Part shown: piece after piece, positions 7,679-61,309 of the stretch
How the letters are laid out: each line of letters begins with the position of its first letter
How positions within the stretch are numbered: position 1 is the stretch's first letter
Assembly: GCA_919902505.1 (NCBI GenBank)
Contig: CAKKRE010000020.1
Location: 1-64,000 of the forward strand
Source: Nitrospiraceae bacterium
GTDB lineage: Bacteria; Nitrospirota; Nitrospiria; Nitrospirales; Nitrospiraceae
DNA length: 64,000 nucleotides
Direction: 5' to 3'
The notes under the pieces: model-generated
Databases searched by the model: none
Seen by the model: only the letters and a program-made list of their open reading frames with translations
Told to the model about the DNA's origin: nothing
Made by a program: the position numbers and the translations under genes

Positions 7679-8605
7679 ATGCACAACGTGGTCATTATCG
7701 GATCCGGTCCGGCCGGCCTCACCGCCGCCATCTATGCAGCCAGAGCCAATCTTTCGCCACTGCTCATCGAAGGCTGGCAGTCCGGCGGGCAACTGACGAC
7801 GACCACCGAAGTCGAAAACTATCCCGGATTTTCCAAGGGCATCATGGGCCCTGAGCTCATGAAGGAGATGCGCGCCCAGGCGGAGCGCTTTGGCACGACA
7901 TTCCTCACCGGCGATGTCTCAGCCGTGGATCTCACGCAGCGGCCGTTTCGCCTGACCATCGACGGGGAACAGACGGTGAAAGCGGCGACCTTGATTCTGG
8001 CCACGGGCGCATCGGCCATTCCGCTCGGCCTGCCGAATGAATCTCGGTTGATCGGACACGGCGTCTCGACTTGCGCAACCTGCGATGGGTACTTTTTTCG
8101 CGGGAAAGACTTAGTGGTCGTGGGCGGCGGCGACAGCGCGCTGGAAGAGGCCAATTTTCTGACGAAATTCGCCCGAACGGTCACCGTGGTCCACCGGCGG
8201 GACAAACTGCGGGCCTCGAAAATCATGCAGGACCGCGCCATGAAGAATGAAAAAATTTCGTTCGCATGGAATTCCGTCATCGAAGACATCCTTGGAACTG
8301 ACCTGGCAACGGGGGTTCAGCTCAAGAACCTCGTGACAGGGGTCACAACCGAATTGGCTTGCGACGGCGTCTTCGTCGCCATCGGCCACCGCCCCAACAC
8401 CGATCTCTTCAAGGGCCAACTGGCTATGGATGAAAAGGGGTATCTGCTGACCTCGCAAGGCACGGCCACCAGCGTCAGCGGCGTGTTTGCCGCAGGCGAT
8501 GTCCAGGATACGAAGTACCGTCAGGCCATCACCGCTGCCGGCTCCGGCTGCATGGCCGCCATCGACGCCGAGCGGTTTCTGGAGTCGACTCTGCATCACC
8601 TCTAA
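7679..8605 (+). CDS. trxB: Thioredoxin reductase
   Basis: NADPH:thioredoxin reductase, 308 residues, normal for the low-molecular-weight type. The FAD-binding '[20 protein letters not shown]' is at the N terminus, the redox-active CxxC ('CATCDGYFF') near residue 125, the NADPH-binding '[16 protein letters not shown]' just after, and the second FAD motif '[21 protein letters not shown]' near the end. Cytoplasmic. It precedes thiI on the same strand, but a 128-bp palindromic element fills the gap between them, so the two are probably not one tight transcript. Confidence 0.96.
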
Positions 8606-8612
8606 ATCCCGC

Positions 8613-8740
8613 GCAGGATGCTCAAAATGGTCGTCCAACAAGGCCGCAGGCGAGACAGATACCGGAGGCGTACCCTCAGGGGTACGTTGAGGATATCGTC
8701 GAGCCGAGAACGAAGTTGGCGGCCATTTTCAGCATCCTGC
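8613..8740 (+). repeat. Palindromic intergenic element, copy A
   Basis: About 128 bp starting 8 bases after the trxB stop. Outer arms GCAGGATGCTCAAAATGG (8613) and CCATTTTCAGCATCCTGC (to 8740) pair perfectly apart from one C facing C. The centre has a small hairpin, GTACCC/GGGTAC (around 8676). The inner segment carries the family words 'CAAGGCCGCAGGCGAG' and 'GAACGAAGTTGGCGGCC'. It shares its architecture with copies B, D and F and, partially, with C and E. Confidence 0.85.
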
Positions 8741-8747
8741 TAACGCT

Positions 8748-16681: not shown

Positions 16682-16757
16682 GCGGAAGGTCGTCGCTCAT
16701 CGTTCGTCTCTCGTCGGAAAATCGCACCCGTGATCAGGCAAGAGAGGACGACACCCC

Positions 16758-16880
16758 TGGGATGCTCAAACAGGTCGCCCAGCAAGGCCGCAGCGAGTGA
16801 AGGACCGAGTCGTACCCTTGCGGTACGGTGAGGGCAGGAACGAAGCGAGAACGCCGCTGGCGGCCTGTTTCAGCATCCCA
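16758..16880 (+). repeat. Palindromic intergenic element, copy B
   Basis: 123 bp between a plus-strand kinase gene and a convergent minus-strand peptidase gene. Arms TGGGATGCTCAAACAGG (16758) and CCTGTTTCAGCATCCCA (ends 16880) pair with one C facing C. The apical hairpin is GTACC-CTTGC-GGTAC near 16812. The right end touches the stop codon of the peptidase gene (TAA read on the minus strand, from 16883). On the plus strand the right half reads CGCCGCTGGCGGCCTGTTT, terminator-like. Confidence 0.88.
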
Positions 16881-17753
16881 TTAGACGCGTTTGGTCATGC
16901 GGGAGAACCGTTCCTGCAACACCAAGCCGTTCGATACAAGACGCTTGGTGCGAATGGTTTTCTGCACCGCCTCGATCCGCGCGGAAAAGTTGGGATGGGT
17001 CTTAAACAGCGCACGGTCATCGCCCTTGAGGTCGCGCAACCGCATCAGTAGGCCCACATAGGCCTCCGCATCGTACCCGACCCGCGCGGCGAACACTTCA
17101 CCGACCGTATCGGCATCCGTTTCTTTCTCCTGATCCAGACCTTCATCGAGGAGCTTCTTGACGGCGCCGTCGATCACGCCCTTGAACGCAGCCGGATTAC
17201 TCGTCGCATAGGAAAGGCCGGCTTCGGTCACCCCGGCCAGGCGCTTGCTGCGTTGAATCACATCAAGAATGTGCTTTTCGCTCACGTGCGCAATTTCATG
17301 CCCCAAGACGGCGGCGAGTTCCGCCTCATTCTTGATTTGCCTAAGCAGGCCCCGGGTCACAAAAATATATCCGGCGGGCGCGGCAAACGCGTTGATCGAC
17401 TCGTGATCCAGAATCGCGACACGGTACGGAATGTCGGGCCGGTCGGACGTGTTGGCTACCGCCCTCCCCACCAGGTTCACATAGCGAACTAATTCGGGCT
17501 GGTCCACAACACCGCCGTACCGTGCCACGACTTGCAGGGCTATCGCCTGCCCGATCGACGATTCTTCCTCGTAGCCGATGGGAAACAGACTGCCGACGAC
17601 ATTGCCTACGCCATGGATCGCACCGGCCAATCGGGGATTGCCGGACTGTCGTGCGACATCCTCGGCAGCCCGCTGCACCTCTGCACACCCCGCCACAGTC
17701 ATCGAGAGCGCCATCAGGCTCGCCATCCAGATCCTGTTATTTCGCATATTCAC
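16881..17753 (-). CDS. M48-family metallopeptidase lipoprotein
   Basis: 290 residues. A lipoprotein signal with lipobox 'TVAGC' near residue 22 places it at the outer membrane periplasmic face. Zinc site 'LGHEIAHVSEKH' (HExxH) near residue 150 and the third ligand Glu in 'DADTVGEVFAARVGYD' near 220 identify a Ste24/BepA/LoiP-like M48 peptidase, a class that degrades or helps fold outer-membrane proteins. Its start overlaps the end of the SH3 gene by 17 bases, so the two are cotranscribed and probably coupled. The stop lies directly at the end of repeat copy B. Confidence 0.9.
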   Translation of the reverse strand: MNMRNNRIWMASLMALSMTVAGCAEVQRAAEDVARQSGNPRLAGAIHGVGNVVGSLFPIGYEEESSIGQAIALQVVARYGGVVDQPELVRYVNLVGRAVANTSDRPDIPYRVAILDHESINAFAAPAGYIFVTRGLLRQIKNEAELAAVLGHEIAHVSEKHILDVIQRSKRLAGVTEAGLSYATSNPAAFKGVIDGAVKKLLDEGLDQEKETDADTVGEVFAARVGYDAEAYVGLLMRLRDLKGDDRALFKTHPNFSARIEAVQKTIRTKRLVSNGLVLQERFSRMTKRV

Positions 17754-20414: not shown

Positions 20415-20530
20415 GAAGGCGATTGCACGATCAAAGACGCGCTGACCATCGGACTATCGTACGTGAGAATGAACCGGAGGGAAAGGGGGCTGGCTGGTAT
20501 GAGCTCAGACGAACGGACAGTCACCCAAGG

Positions 20531-20646
20531 AATCCTCAAAAAAGCCGTCCGGCAAGGCCGCAGCACGCGAGGAGGCCGAGCGAGAAAAGCTCCGCCGGGC
20601 GAGAGGATCGGGCGGCGGAGCAGGCAGTCAGGAATCTTCCGGGCTA
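20531..20646 (+). repeat. Degenerate palindromic intergenic element, copy C
   Basis: Left half AATCCTCAAAAAAGCCGTCC and 'GGCAAGGCCGCAGC' match the family; the right half is eroded (AGTCAGGAATCTTCC and the terminal GGGCTAG remain). The terminal CTAG supplies the TAG stop of the minus-strand protease gene, as in copies D and F. The centre 'CTCCGCCGGGCGAGAGGATC' differs from other copies. Confidence 0.55.
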
Positions 20647-22257
20647 GGGAACGTCGGTCGCGCAACGAAACCCGAGCGTCGGCCCCCAGTACGTCATCTC
20701 GTCCCAGCCCCGGTAGCCGGCGCGCAACTCGAGAGGCCGCTCCACCCAACTGCCGCCTCGCAAGACACGAAACGTCCCGCGCAACGGCCCCTGCGGATCC
20801 CGGGCCGGCGAGGTGCGGTAAAAATCCTCCGCATACCAGTCCTTCACCCATTCCGACACCATCCCGATCATGCCGAATACGCCGTAGGGTGACGCGGAGA
20901 CTGAGGCCAGGCCCAACGGATCGACGCCATTGGCAGAATTCCCGTCCGTCAGCTTAACCCTGCTTTTCTGAATAACCTCGTCGCTGTTGCCCCAGGGATA
21001 GCGCCGGCCATCGATTCCCCTCGCCGCCTTCTCCCATTCCGCCTCCGTCGGCAATCGTTTCCCGACCCACTGACAGTAGGCCCTGGCTTGAGACCAGGTG
21101 ACATTGGCCACCGGCCATTGGGCTCGCTGCGGATCATCGAAGGCATCGCGCACTTTCGGAATCAGGCAGGCGCCTCCATCCACACAGGCCCGGTACTGCC
21201 CGTTCGTCACGCCCTGCCGGTCGATCCAATAGGCACTCACATACAACCGATGGATCGGACGGGCATCGGGCAGACCATCCTCCATGCCCATGAGGAACTC
21301 GCCGGCAGGTATCAACACCATCTCGCCGGGAGGTGTCAGTCCTTGATCGACGAGTCGCTTGAGCTCTTCCTGCTGGCTTGCCAAAAGTTGCGCATTCACG
21401 CGATCAATAGATTCGTCTCCGGCCAAGGGAACCGGCTCATGGACAGGAGCGGGCGGCAGCGGGACACGGGTGACGGACGGCTGGGCACTGTGCCGGCCGT
21501 CGGAAGACGGAGGCATCGGCGCGGGGTGAATGACCGTGGCCGGCCCTTCGGACATGCGCACGGTTTCGATCCGCACAGACGTCCGCGTGAGTTCCGTGAC
21601 CAGATCACCGTTGCCCTTTCCCTTGGGCGACTCCCTTCTACCCCTGCCGATGGCGGAGAAATCGAAATCCGGGATGTTGGCTAACAGGGGCGTGGCGTAA
21701 CTGATCGGCACGGCAAAGGCCATCCCTTCCGGCACGATCCCGGACGGATGGGTAAACTTCGTGGTGAGGATGCCCACGACTTCGCCCTTCCGGTTAAACA
21801 CCGGGCCTCCGCTGTTGCCGGGATTCACCGCGGCATCGACCTGAAAGACCCGTTGCACTCCCTTGGTCCTGACGGCAGCCACGTGGCCGCGGGTGATGGT
21901 GATTTCGCGCAGGCCGAACTGATACCCGACGGCAATGACCTCTTGGTCCAGCTTCACCGCGCCGGCATACCCGAGCAGCGCCTCGGAGAGCCCCACCGTC
22001 TCCACCTTGAGCAAGGCGAGATCATGTTCCGCATCCACGCTCACCAGCACGGCGGGCGCCCGAAATTCCCCGGATGTCACGATCGTGATCCGCTTCGCAT
22101 TGGCCACGACATGATGGGCCGTGAGGACATACCCATCACGATGCACAATGACGCCGCTGCCGGCCGGCTTTTCTACCGGCGATGGCGGACGCTCGTTCGC
22201 CCGTCCACTTTCGACAGGCGCGAACAACAGGACCAGCAGGACCAGGTAGATCTTCAT
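20644..22257 (-). CDS. Exported trypsin-like serine protease fused to a formylglycine-generating-enzyme-like domain
   Basis: 537 residues. Signal peptide about 1-21. The N-terminal HtrA-like (S1C) protease domain (about 30-195) has catalytic His49 ('TAHHVV'), Asp79 ('HDLALLK') and Ser149 ('NPGNSGGPVF'). A Pro-rich linker (about 200-300) follows, without a PDZ domain, then an FGE-sulfatase/SUMF1-type domain (about 310-535; 'MVLIPAGEFLMGMEDGLPDA', 'GKRLPTEAEWEKAARG', 'VLRGGSWVERPLELRAGYRG'). The two cysteines that true formylglycine-generating enzymes carry after GGS are absent, so this half is probably a binding or other non-FGE domain. Starts with an ATGA overlap with the DUF3365 gene. Confidence 0.88.
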   Translation of the reverse strand: MKIYLVLLVLLFAPVESGRANERPPSPVEKPAGSGVIVHRDGYVLTAHHVVANAKRITIVTSGEFRAPAVLVSVDAEHDLALLKVETVGLSEALLGYAGAVKLDQEVIAVGYQFGLREITITRGHVAAVRTKGVQRVFQVDAAVNPGNSGGPVFNRKGEVVGILTTKFTHPSGIVPEGMAFAVPISYATPLLANIPDFDFSAIGRGRRESPKGKGNGDLVTELTRTSVRIETVRMSEGPATVIHPAPMPPSSDGRHSAQPSVTRVPLPPAPVHEPVPLAGDESIDRVNAQLLASQQEELKRLVDQGLTPPGEMVLIPAGEFLMGMEDGLPDARPIHRLYVSAYWIDRQGVTNGQYRACVDGGACLIPKVRDAFDDPQRAQWPVANVTWSQARAYCQWVGKRLPTEAEWEKAARGIDGRRYPWGNSDEVIQKSRVKLTDGNSANGVDPLGLASVSASPYGVFGMIGMVSEWVKDWYAEDFYRTSPARDPQGPLRGTFRVLRGGSWVERPLELRAGYRGWDEMTYWGPTLGFRCATDVP

Positions 22258-24487: not shown

Positions 24488-24720
24488 GATGTCTCCCTCC
24501 TCCATGAAGGATGACCGCATTGCACAGGCACTCTGCGGTAACATCTAGAACAGTACTGGAAGCGGGACACGGGGCCTATTGCCTGGAGGGTGGATTTTCC
24601 CTCCACCCTTCGAGTGAGGACGTTGCGGGAATGAACGGGGATCTACCAGGCTGCGGAAAAACTCGATTGTTGCGTATACGCTATGATCAACTCGTGCGCC
24701 GTCTCGGTATCAAAATACTC
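24488..24720. other. Intergenic region with a hairpin and a possible lone element arm
   Basis: A 7-bp stem GGGTGGA/TCCACCC at 24588-24608 with a 7-base loop is visible. At 24646 the word CCAGGCTGCGGAAAAACTCG resembles the outer arm of the palindromic element family (compare copy F, GCAGGCTGTTCAGAAAGG), suggesting the remnant of another copy next to copy D. No gene supported. Confidence 0.4.
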
Positions 24721-24957
24721 AGCAGGATGCGCAAAAAGGCCGTCCCCTCGTCCGTTGTTCGTGAAACGTCGTTCGTCTCTCGTCCGCAGAAAAGAGCTTA
24801 TGGCTGATAGCGTATGGCCAGAAATCGAGAGTGGGCGTCTCTACTCTCAGCTATACGCCACGAGCCATACGCTCTGCCCCCGACGAGATACGCTTCACGA
24901 TTCACGCTTCACGGGTGTCGAGAACGCCGCTGGCGGACTTTTTCCGCATCCTGCTAG
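24721..24957 (+). repeat. Palindromic intergenic element, copy D, with an inserted central segment
   Basis: Arms AGCAGGATGCGCAAAAAGG (24721) and CTTTTTCCGCATCCTGCT (ends 24955) pair with the family's C facing C mismatch. At about 235 bp it is nearly twice the usual length: the middle holds another structured segment with the 10-bp inverted pair AGCGTATGGC (24809) and GCCATACGCT (24864), a nested GAGAGT/ACTCTC pair (24827, 24843), and CTTCACG-type direct repeats near 24892-24912. The end CTAG supplies the stop codon of the minus-strand NarL-type regulator. Confidence 0.8.
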
Positions 24958-25598
24958 CGGCTCTGCAGATAGGTGAGTACGGCTTCCACCCGGCCGCTCA
25001 CACGTAGCTTCTGATAAATATGGTGCAGATGGGTCTTGACGGTATCGAGGGACACGCACAATTGATCGGCGATTTCTTTGTTGCTCCGTCCGGCAGCTGC
25101 GCAGGCGAGGATTTCATGCTCGCGATCGGTCAAGAGCGACAACCCGCCCCCGCTCGACTCCTCCTGTTTATTCACCAACGCGACCGCCTGCTTCGCAAAC
25201 CCATCGGGCATGAAAGGCGACCGCACCGGTTCACCCTTGTCGGTGGCGCGAATGATCCGCAGAAACTCCTGGTGGTCGGCATCCTTAAGGATGTACCCGC
25301 AGGCGCCCGCTTGCACGGCTGCCACGATCCGGGCGTCGTCGTCATGCACCGACAGCATCAACACCTTGCTGTCCGGCACGCAGCTGCGGATCAATCGCGT
25401 GGCGGTGATGCCGTCCAATCTGGGCATGTCCACATCCATGAGGACGATGCCCGGCTTGTGTGCCACCGCGAGATCGAACGCCTGCCGGCCATCCATCGCT
25501 TCCCCTACCACAACGAGATCCCGCTCATGTTCCAGCAGCAGGCGCAGGCTCTGCCGGAACAACCGTTGATCTTCGGCAATCACGATGGTGATGGGCAT
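24954..25598 (-). CDS. NarL/LuxR-type response regulator
   Basis: 214 residues. Receiver (about 1-120; 'IVIAEDQRLFRQSLRLLLEH', Asp in 'IVLMDVDMPRLDG', Lys in 'ILKDADH') and LuxR-type helix-turn-helix (about 145-212; 'LLTDREHEILACAAAGRSNK', 'LCVSLDTVKTHLHHIYQKL'). It overlaps the kinase gene upstream by 19 bases and is its evident partner. The stop codon TAG is formed by the end of repeat copy D. A DNA-binding transcription factor; the small exported-protein run just downstream is a plausible target (inference). Confidence 0.95.
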   Translation of the reverse strand: MPITIVIAEDQRLFRQSLRLLLEHERDLVVVGEAMDGRQAFDLAVAHKPGIVLMDVDMPRLDGITATRLIRSCVPDSKVLMLSVHDDDARIVAAVQAGACGYILKDADHQEFLRIIRATDKGEPVRSPFMPDGFAKQAVALVNKQEESSGGGLSLLTDREHEILACAAAGRSNKEIADQLCVSLDTVKTHLHHIYQKLRVSGRVEAVLTYLQSR

Positions 25599-56207: not shown

Positions 56208-56474
56208 ATGGCAAACCAAATGGACAGCGTCCACGTCTACGATACCTGGGTCAAAGGAAAGAACGGCAAACTCCACTTCGACGTGATGACCACGAATCAG
56301 GAGAAAGCGCTCACGCTCGCCAAGCAATATTTGGAGGGCATCGGCGAACCGACCGCGGTCATCACCGTCAAGGAATGCCAGTTCTGCCACAGCGAACCAC
56401 TCGTGATGTTTACGGAAGAGCAGCAGCGCCAGTTCCTGGAACAGGGTGGCTTCATCGTCACGATGCCGGTCTGA
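56208..56474 (+). CDS. DUF2024-family protein
   Basis: 88 residues. 'VHVYDTWVKGKNGKLHFDVM' is the family opening, followed by 'KQYLEGIGEPTAVITVKECQ' and 'CQFCHSEPLV', a CxxCH-like motif probably not used for heme since there is no signal peptide. AAGGAG lies 11 bases before the ATG and close to an in-frame GTG at 56202, which may be the true start. Function unknown for the family. Downstream of uppP, convergent with lspA. Confidence 0.82.
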   Translation: MANQMDSVHVYDTWVKGKNGKLHFDVMTTNQEKALTLAKQYLEGIGEPTAVITVKECQFCHSEPLVMFTEEQQRQFLEQGGFIVTMPV

Positions 56475-56516
56475 TTGGGAAGAACGAAGCGTACGCTTAT
56501 ACGTTGAGCTACTGGA

Positions 56517-56561
56517 ACGACGCGAGAACGCCGCCGGCGGGCTTTTTCAGCGTCCTGTCAG
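56517..56561 (+). repeat. Half copy of the palindromic intergenic element, copy E
   Basis: Only the right half is present: GACGCGAGAACGCCGCCGGC followed by a CTTTTTCAGCGTCCTG end. It has a GC-rich hairpin (CCGCCGGCGG) followed by CTTTTT, reading as a plus-strand terminator for the DUF2024 gene. The lspA stop codon (TGA on the minus strand) is at 56558-56560, inside its end. Confidence 0.7.
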
Positions 56562-57079
56562 GAGGGAGGGTTGTCGGGAACCACCGGAGTTGGCTCCGGC
56601 TCCTTCTCCAGCGCAAAGTGCAGAATCAGAAACGCCACCCCGACCGTAATCGCCGAGTCAGCGACGTTAAACGCGGGGAAATGGTAGGCGTTGAAATAAA
56701 AGTCCAGAAAGTCGATCACTTCCCCGTACCGCAAACGGTCCAGTAAGTTCCCGATCGCCCCGCCGAGAATCGCCGCCACGCTCAGCCGCCCCATCCAATC
56801 ATCCTTCGGCATGCGGACCAGAATCGTGCCCAGCAAGCCCACGGCGAAGATCGAGGTCACACCGAAAAAGACGAACCGGAACGAGCTGCTGCTGGAGGAG
56901 AGAAACCCGAAGGCCGCGCCGGGATTCCGGATGTAGGTGATGCTGAAGAAGTTCGCCACGACCGGGATGGATTCATGGAGCCGCATGGTCTCCATAACAT
57001 AGATCTTCGTGACCTGATCCAGCACGACAATCGCCAGACTCAGCAACCCGAGCAGGAGATAACGAACGGAGTTGCTCAA
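56558..57079 (-). CDS. lspA: Lipoprotein signal peptidase
   Basis: 173 residues, four membrane helices. Family blocks 'NPGAAFGFL', and catalytic Asp residues in 'GGAIGNLLDRLRYGEVIDFL' and 'FNVADSAITVGV'. Cleaves prolipoprotein signal peptides in the inner membrane. It overlaps the end of ileS by four bases, the classic ileS-lspA arrangement. Several lipoproteins in this window are likely clients. Confidence 0.96.
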   Translation of the reverse strand: MSNSVRYLLLGLLSLAIVVLDQVTKIYVMETMRLHESIPVVANFFSITYIRNPGAAFGFLSSSSSSFRFVFFGVTSIFAVGLLGTILVRMPKDDWMGRLSVAAILGGAIGNLLDRLRYGEVIDFLDFYFNAYHFPAFNVADSAITVGVAFLILHFALEKEPEPTPVVPDNPPS

Positions 57080-59895: not shown

Positions 59896-60080
59896 AGGAT
59901 GATCTATCTGAGGAACAAAAGCGTCATGAAGTGCGCGTAAAAAGAGGACTATACCGAAACGAGGCCAGAGGAACCAGTGGTTTGTTAGTACCTGAGCCGC
60001 CTAGCAGTGCGTTGACAAACCTCACACCACATTCAGGAAAGGATTAGAGCGCAAGGTGAGCGGTCGGATCTGGATGCCAC
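59896..60080. other. Region upstream of ileS, nothing firm
   Basis: 185 bases preceding repeat copy F. The plus-strand word 'GTTGACAAACCTCACACC' near 60011 includes a -35-like TTGACA, but no gene starts to its right, so I do not call a promoter. No RNA structure was recognised. Confidence 0.3.
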
Positions 60081-60206
60081 GCAGGCTGTTCAGAAAGGCC
60101 GTCCAGCAAGGCCGCAGCGAGCGAAGAGGCGAATCGTACTCGGTGCCGTACGGTGAGCCTCTGAGCGAAGCGAGAACGCCGCTGGCGGCCTTTCTCAACA
60201 GCCTGC
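60081..60206 (+). repeat. Palindromic intergenic element, copy F
   Basis: 126 bp, the best-preserved copy. Arms GCAGGCTGTTCAGAAAGGCC (60081) and GGCCTTTCTCAACAGCCTGC (ends 60206) pair with the C facing C mismatch. Inner words 'CAGCAAGGCCGCAGCGAGCG' and 'GCGAGAACGCCGCTGGCGGC' match copies B and E; the apical GTAC/GTAC pair is near 60136. The end CTAG supplies the TAG stop of nadA (60206-60208). Confidence 0.9.
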
Positions 60207-61309
60207 TAGCTGAGGGCCATCATGCGGTCCAACGCCACCTTCGCCATCTGCTTTTCGTCATCCGGGACCACGATCCGGTTCACGACATGGCCATCGGCAA
60301 GGTTTTCCAGCGCCCAGCAGAGGTGTGGGGCGTCGATCCGGTACATGGTCGCGCATTGGCAGACGGTTGAGGAGAGGAAGAACACCTTCTTGTCGGTCTG
60401 CTCGTGTTTCAGGCGATTGACGAGGTTCAACTCCGTCCCGACCGCCCAGGTGGTGCCCGCCGGCGCCGCGGTGATGGTGCGAATGATGTACTCCGTCGAA
60501 CCGACCAGGTCGGCCTTGTTCACCACATCCTCATGGCATTCGGGATGGACGATGACCTTCACGTCCGGGTACTGCTTGCGGAAATAGTCCACGTGCGACG
60601 GCTGGAACATCTGGTGGACGCTGCAATGGCCCTTCCAGAGGATCAACTTGGCCCGCTGGATCGCCTCCACGGAATTACCGCCGCGCGGCATGTGGGGATC
60701 CCAGACAATCATCTGCTCGCGGGGGATGCCCATCTTGTTGGCCGTATTACGCCCCAGGTGTTCATCGGGGAAAAACAGGATCTTCTCGCGTCGCGCCCAG
60801 CTCCATTCGATGACCTTCCGCGCATTGGACGAGGTACAGGTCAGCCCGCCATGTTCGCCGCAAAACGCCTTCAGGATCGCGGCGGAGTTCACATAGACCG
60901 CCGGCATGACCGTCTCTTCCACCGGCACCACCCGCCCGAGCGCATCCCAGCACTGTTCGACCTGCTCGATCGCCGCCATGTCGGCCATGGAACAGCCTGC
61001 CGCCATGTCGGGGAGAATGACCGTTTGATTGGAGCGACTCAACACGTCGGCCGTCTCCGCCATGAAGTGCACGCCGCAAAACACCACATAGGGCCGATCG
61101 GAACGTTGCTCGGCCACCTGTGCGAGAATCAGGGAATCGCCCCGGAAATCGGCATGCTGAATCACTTCATCGCGCTGATAATTATGGCCGAGGATCATCA
61201 CCCGGTCACCCAGCGCCCGTTTGGCCGCGCGGGTCCGTTCAAAGAGTTCTTCGGCAGACAAGGATTGATAGTCGGTAATGGGACGGGGAAGCGTGGCGAC
61301 CGTTTTCAC
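60206..61309 (-). CDS. nadA: Quinolinate synthase
   Basis: 367 residues. 'MILGHNYQRDEVIQHADFRG', 'VVFCGVHFMAETADVLSR', 'LTCTSSNARKVIEWSW' and 'STVCQCATMYRIDAPHLCWA' contain the three cysteines of the 4Fe-4S cluster. Condenses iminoaspartate with dihydroxyacetone phosphate in NAD synthesis. nadB and nadC are not in the window; nadD is at 38445. Confidence 0.97.
   Translation of the reverse strand: MKTVATLPRPITDYQSLSAEELFERTRAAKRALGDRVMILGHNYQRDEVIQHADFRGDSLILAQVAEQRSDRPYVVFCGVHFMAETADVLSRSNQTVILPDMAAGCSMADMAAIEQVEQCWDALGRVVPVEETVMPAVYVNSAAILKAFCGEHGGLTCTSSNARKVIEWSWARREKILFFPDEHLGRNTANKMGIPREQMIVWDPHMPRGGNSVEAIQRAKLILWKGHCSVHQMFQPSHVDYFRKQYPDVKVIVHPECHEDVVNKADLVGSTEYIIRTITAAPAGTTWAVGTELNLVNRLKHEQTDKKVFFLSSTVCQCATMYRIDAPHLCWALENLADGHVVNRIVVPDDEKQMAKVALDRMMALS

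Follow-up and report, generated by a model that had tools for sequence, protein, structure and literature searches.

The palindromic intergenic repeats of this Nitrospiraceae genome are, with high confidence, a family of IS5-type MITEs that inserts into the tetranucleotide [C/T]TA[A/G] (YTAR), and for this reason many of its copies lie at gene ends. The MITE status follows from the combination of IS5-type terminal repeats, 4-bp [C/T]TA[A/G] duplications, a match to an autonomous IS5 transposon, and precise empty sites. The kind of element, an IS5-type MITE, is already known; the family is new, and no earlier description of it was found in the open-access papers that were searched. Likewise, Rfam searched at gathering thresholds gave no match over the window, by which we mean the whole stretch of 64,000 nucleotides that was analyzed.

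An intact element of about 200 bp consists of a left terminal repeat of 15-18 bp, a spacer of ~58 nt, and a hairpin of 121 nt. The left terminal repeat fully or almost fully matches the one found in a resident or related IS5 transposon, and the 3' arm of the hairpin doubles as the right terminal repeat. Insertion into [C/T]TA[A/G] duplicates the target tetranucleotide. The palindrome of about 125 bp, which the preliminary description took for the entire element, turned out to be only the right-hand part of an element of ~200 bp.

When copies were aligned together with their flanks, CTAG, TTAG, CTAA or TTAA was often found directly after the 3' end. A motif search revealed an inverted second copy of the 3' arm motif upstream of many hairpins. 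Relative to a covariance model derived from 31 of the copies in this genome, one such left terminal repeat (a-type) was located 73-77 nt upstream of the model start in 35 copies, and hardly ever at other distances. The element thus delimited is 198-202 bp long in 29 of these 35 copies, and 233-311 bp long in variants with inserts. The flanking [C/T]TA[A/G] tetranucleotides form an identical pair in 19 of the 35 copies, and most of the others are one base off; YTAR is present at 26 left ends and 30 right ends. As asymmetric flanks agree with each other (CTAA/CTAA, TTAG/TTAG), simple extension of the palindrome is excluded. Of 111 right ends examined in total, 59 are followed by YTAR, compared to a background of 0.21% per position, and the pattern CAGGNTGNNGAAAAA has 59 matches in the genome and none for the reversed control. 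No transposase gene was found within the short element, as is characteristic of MITEs.

A clear a-type left terminal repeat is missing in about two-thirds of the copies. A few of these, including the window copy at 60001, start with a b-type left end that approximates CAG[T/G][C/G]TGTTGACAAAC, and we read the remaining copies as old and decayed. The left arm of the hairpin itself serves as the element end in only three copies. Four copies (L061:2013-2252, L064:5280-5473, L065:1244-1437, and L067:13973-14168) carry an insert of ~65 nt within the right arm, GGTTCACGACGCGC...GGCGGCAGTGTCTT, which itself contains two hairpins.

Palindromic repeats with common inner words are indeed present at all six sites of the window for which they had been reported, and all six are oriented along the plus strand. 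The most complete copy is a b-type element at 60001..60209 (CM score 146.5 bits for 60080-60209), in which CTAG (60001-60004) is followed by the left terminal repeat CAGTGCGTTGACAAACC (60005-60021), a spacer of ~58 nt, the hairpin (60080-60205) with its 3' arm as right terminal repeat, and a second CTAG (60206-60209) that includes the TAG with which the minus-strand gene 60206-61309 ends. The copy at 24643..24957 has the a-type left terminal repeat CAGGCTGCGGAAAAA at 24647-24661, preceded by CTAC, a decayed duplication. It has the outer hairpin arms of the family around a different internal palindrome, and the minus-strand gene 24954-25598 has its stop codon within the right CTAG (24954-24957). 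At 16756..16884 (141.9 bits), the hairpin ends with CCCA, followed by TTAG (16881-16884), in which the minus-strand gene 16881-17726 terminates with TAA; its left end has no recognizable terminal repeat, and we read it as probably an old copy. The hairpin copy at 8602..8743 (110.1 bits for 8612-8743) has CTAA on both sides (8602-8605 and 8740-8743) and no separate left terminal repeat, and here it is the left CTAA that holds the stop codon of the upstream plus-strand gene 7679-8605. The two other sites are degraded. The copy at 20526..20647 (17.7 bits for 20548-20598) retained the left arm and the word CAAGGCCGCAG, its right arm is replaced, and the minus-strand gene 20644-22257 stops within its final CTAG (20644-20647). 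At 56457..56561 (23.2 bits), a remnant of the right half only ends with CCTG and TCAG (56558-56561), the latter holding the TGA stop codon of the minus-strand gene 56558-57079.

Several details of the preliminary description change as a result. The outer limits were incomplete, as the copies placed at 60081 and 24721 begin at 60001 and 24643, respectively. Only three of the six sites, rather than four, are full copies of the same hairpin. The uniform orientation is local to the window, since copies in the rest of the genome use both strands. The location just 3' of a gene was confirmed and can be stated more precisely: at five of the six sites, the neighboring minus-strand gene has its stop codon within the right-end tetranucleotide, and in the copy at 8612 the left-end CTAA holds that of the upstream gene. 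Folding was far stronger than that of shuffled sequences at three of the four window sites tested (z -8.8 at 8602..8743, -4.0 at 16756..16884, and -6.9), but not for the degenerate copy at 20525-20652 (z -0.9).

The covariance-model scan of this genome and its relatives that had been proposed as a check revealed further copies throughout the lineage. In this genome, ~115 copies were found at E ≤ 0.01, a mild lower bound because 150 candidates were scored; this falls short of the hundreds per genome that had been predicted. When genes were called with a home-made hexamer-based gene caller instead of a standard annotation, 98 of 107 copies lay clearly between genes, whereas 75% of random 130-nt segments lie inside them. 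Background counts, here and below, come from ~1.6 of 4.24 Mb, in stretches chosen partly around known copies. Neither an absence of further copies nor a random scatter inside genes was observed. One copy (G000:C37:13128-13339) lies inside the signal-peptide part of an apparent small lipoprotein gene, and this site is empty in relatives.

We then searched for PF01609 transposase genes in six genomes of the genus and scanned their flanks for the ends of the element. One relative has a transposon of 1.3 kb that is flanked by TTAG duplications and whose CAGGCTGCGGAAAAA ends are perfect (15/15); its transposase of 342 aa matches NCBIfam IS5_4 with 278.9 bits. A genus-wide protein search detected further complete IS5 transposon copies in other members; the a-type IS5 itself has no high-similarity match in this genome. 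A second, related IS5 transposon type has the ends CAG[T/G][G/C]TGTTGACAAA and mostly YTAR duplications. Its single copy in this genome (C6:153010-154388, ends CAGTGTGTTGACAAA, duplication ATAG) matches, in its ends, the left end of the b-type window copy at 60001. The known target duplication of IS5 is Py-T-A-Pu, with CTAG as its commonest form (PMC5493358). We infer from the matching ends that these IS5 transposases would mobilize the element. Two other candidates were discarded: the reading of the left spacer of ~58 nt as a transposase C-terminus, as the two IS5 types found differ in sequence there, and an IS-like pair of ends 2.1 kb apart on contig C29, which encloses ordinary genes.

The flanks of six copies, joined at a single tetranucleotide, were searched in the genus. 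Precise empty sites were found at three loci in several species, with a 0-nt gap, one tetranucleotide, and flanks up to 97% identical, indicating that insertion was precise and, for these copies, recent. Such clean empty sites can be used for dating insertions. The insertion at the 60001 site is older, with a family hairpin ending at the same place in ~8 sampled relatives, some with mixed arms or cores. The outer arms at this site are unpaired in some relatives, and relative G004, whose genome contains just two copies, has no element there.

The empty sites and the matching 4-bp duplications also largely refute the proposal of a REP/BIME-type family, in which a RAYT (Y1 HUH) transposase would spread the elements by way of their single-stranded hairpin. 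Long hairpins, an intergenic position, strong covariation of the arms, and two RAYT-like Y1 genes in the genome would fit this proposal. However, both RAYT-like genes (L088 and L089) are flanked by an unrelated repeat, attgcaagacctgacccc, and no copy of the element lies near either of them. Moreover, RAYT elements have neither 4-bp duplications nor IS5 ends, and a 121-nt hairpin within an element of ~200 bp exceeds the few tens of nucleotides of a REP unit. We therefore consider a REP/BIME identity very unlikely; what holds of the earlier comparison is a genome-wide and lineage-wide family of intergenic palindromes at gene 3' ends.

Integron attC sites, imperfect palindromes behind cassettes, are an even more improbable explanation. 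The genome does encode an intact integron integrase (C65:12832-13764, locus L090; 462 bits, above the curated cut-off), and contig C56 has nine copies in ~15 kb, eight of them on the same strand. Nevertheless, no significant copy was found on the contig with the intact integrase, the genes between the clustered C56 copies are ordinary and several lie on the opposite strand, and copies are dispersed throughout the genome. In addition, the ends are duplicated YTAR rather than attC boxes, and empty sites with a target duplication refute this explanation. Further partial integron integrases were found at C28:918-3354 and C62:42358.

The preferred reading, an IS5-type MITE, also accounts for the coincidence with stop codons. 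Of 59 copies with a right-hand YTAR, 28 have the stop codon of a called gene within it. In the background, this applies to 282 of 3247 YTAR sites (8.7%; p = 7e-15), and when only YTAR sites that are non-coding or stop codons are considered, the share is 15% (p = 7e-9). Where a left terminal repeat is present (35 copies), the right duplication carries the stop codon in 7 cases and the left one in 9, indicating no preferred orientation. A target of the form [C/T]TA[A/G] contains TAA or TAG and presents the same degenerate site on both strands. As the genome is GC-rich, many of the harmless targets are stop codons, and the duplication of the target restores the stop codon of the gene at insertion. 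Target choice and restoration of the stop codon together explain why copies lie exactly at gene ends, and target choice likewise underlies the earlier observation of a position 3' of genes. The rule is simple: if the target of a transposase includes a stop codon, its insertions terminate genes instead of disrupting them.

In 64 older copies without an a-type left end, double (compensatory) changes were found in 31 of 37 consensus pairs, and 93.2% of the cells are paired, compared to 77.3% in shuffles (maximum 78.7%). The words CAAGGCCGCAG and GAGAACG are near-invariant in the hairpin. An A tract and a T tract flank the inner stem on its two sides in 79 of 93 copies, suggesting a putative bidirectional terminator or RNA 3' end. 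Convergent gene pairs are over-represented around the copies (30 of 98, 16% expected), and divergent pairs are nearly absent (2 of 98, 20% expected).

These results raise the question of whether the family is instead a host RNA element or terminator family selected at gene ends, its mobility being secondary and its hairpin acting as a bidirectional terminator or stabilizing an RNA 3' end. The compensatory changes, the high degree of pairing, the two-sided A/T tracts, the bias towards convergent gene pairs, and the family hairpin at the 60001-60209 site in ~8 sampled relatives are all consistent with this explanation. On the other hand, target choice and avoidance of promoters already explain the location, and at the 60001 site outer arms are unpaired in some relatives and the element is absent in one. 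None of the elements turns up in a simple terminator scan, although its 8-nt loop limit would miss them and the scan speaks for neither side. Palindrome correction during replication can also give covariation between non-orthologous copies, so that the paired changes may reflect either selection on a hairpin in RNA or DNA or, as a neutral alternative, such correction. Overall, we regard a primarily selected terminator as possible but doubtful. A related idea, which we put forward tentatively, is that selection maintains the hairpin core as an independent functional module inside several unrelated transposon shells, where it would represent a mobile two-way terminator or RNA 3' end installed at stop codons throughout the Nitrospirales. 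A second MITE family of this genome, also flanked by YTAR but with different ends, has the apical GCGTAC...GTACGTTGAGG hairpin as well.

This second family has the ends CCCGCATTATTCATGA / TCATGAATAATGYGGG, ~196 bp apart (e.g., G000:C2:85678-85874), with 48 ends in the genome and none for the reversed control, and it shares the apical GCGTAC...GTACGT hairpin with the main element at loci L149, L152, and L135. The palindrome GAAGAGGCTCAACGTACTTTCTTCGGTACGTTGAGCCTCTTC at G000:C23:70690-70760 has the apical motif and lacks the arms of the element. The attgcaagacctgacccc-type repeats at L088 and L089 are a separate repeat family.

The IS5-type MITE is widespread in the lineage. Every sampled member of the genus has matches (usually 30-56 of 56 scored candidates each). 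A sample across the order gave matches in 60 of 61 genomes, and a sample of the phylum gave them in 76 of 198, being weak outside the class. In a pattern scan of named genomes, nearly all of the matches listed belong to Nitrospira or other Nitrospirota, the complete N. defluvii chromosome among them; the few others are from assemblies of Phycisphaerales, Fimbriiglobus, Desulfobacterales, and Nitrospinota, which may be due to transfer or mis-binning. The genus to which the genome of the window probably belongs was deduced from these matches. One element family is thus found at gene ends across the nitrite-oxidizing Nitrospirales.

Several known systems resemble this family. REP/BIME elements with RAYT are also extragenic palindromes in many copies, E. 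coli REPs being 14-40 nt long (PMC12306157), but the family described here has no link to RAYT and shows precise 4-bp duplications. ERIC, Correia (204 bp), and QMITE2, which is mainly found in 3' untranslated regions, are likewise palindromic, mostly intergenic, and present in dozens to hundreds of copies (PMC10969869); judged by their descriptions there and by general knowledge, they differ in their hosts and ends. SPRITE, RUP, and BOX of S. pneumoniae are also mobile palindromes that insert into one another, and SPRITE is terminator-like (PMC10969869), whereas here the ends are of the IS5 type and terminator action is putative. The closest similarity is to IS5 itself (Py-T-A-Pu duplication; PMC5493358) and to IS5-family MITEs, which are alike in their terminal repeats, the 4-bp [C/T]TA[A/G] duplication, and the NCBIfam IS5_4 DDE transposase of the partner. 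The present element differs in that it has no transposase, that a long covarying hairpin, whose unpaired words are invariant, incorporates its right terminal repeat, and that its insertions coincide strongly with stop codons.
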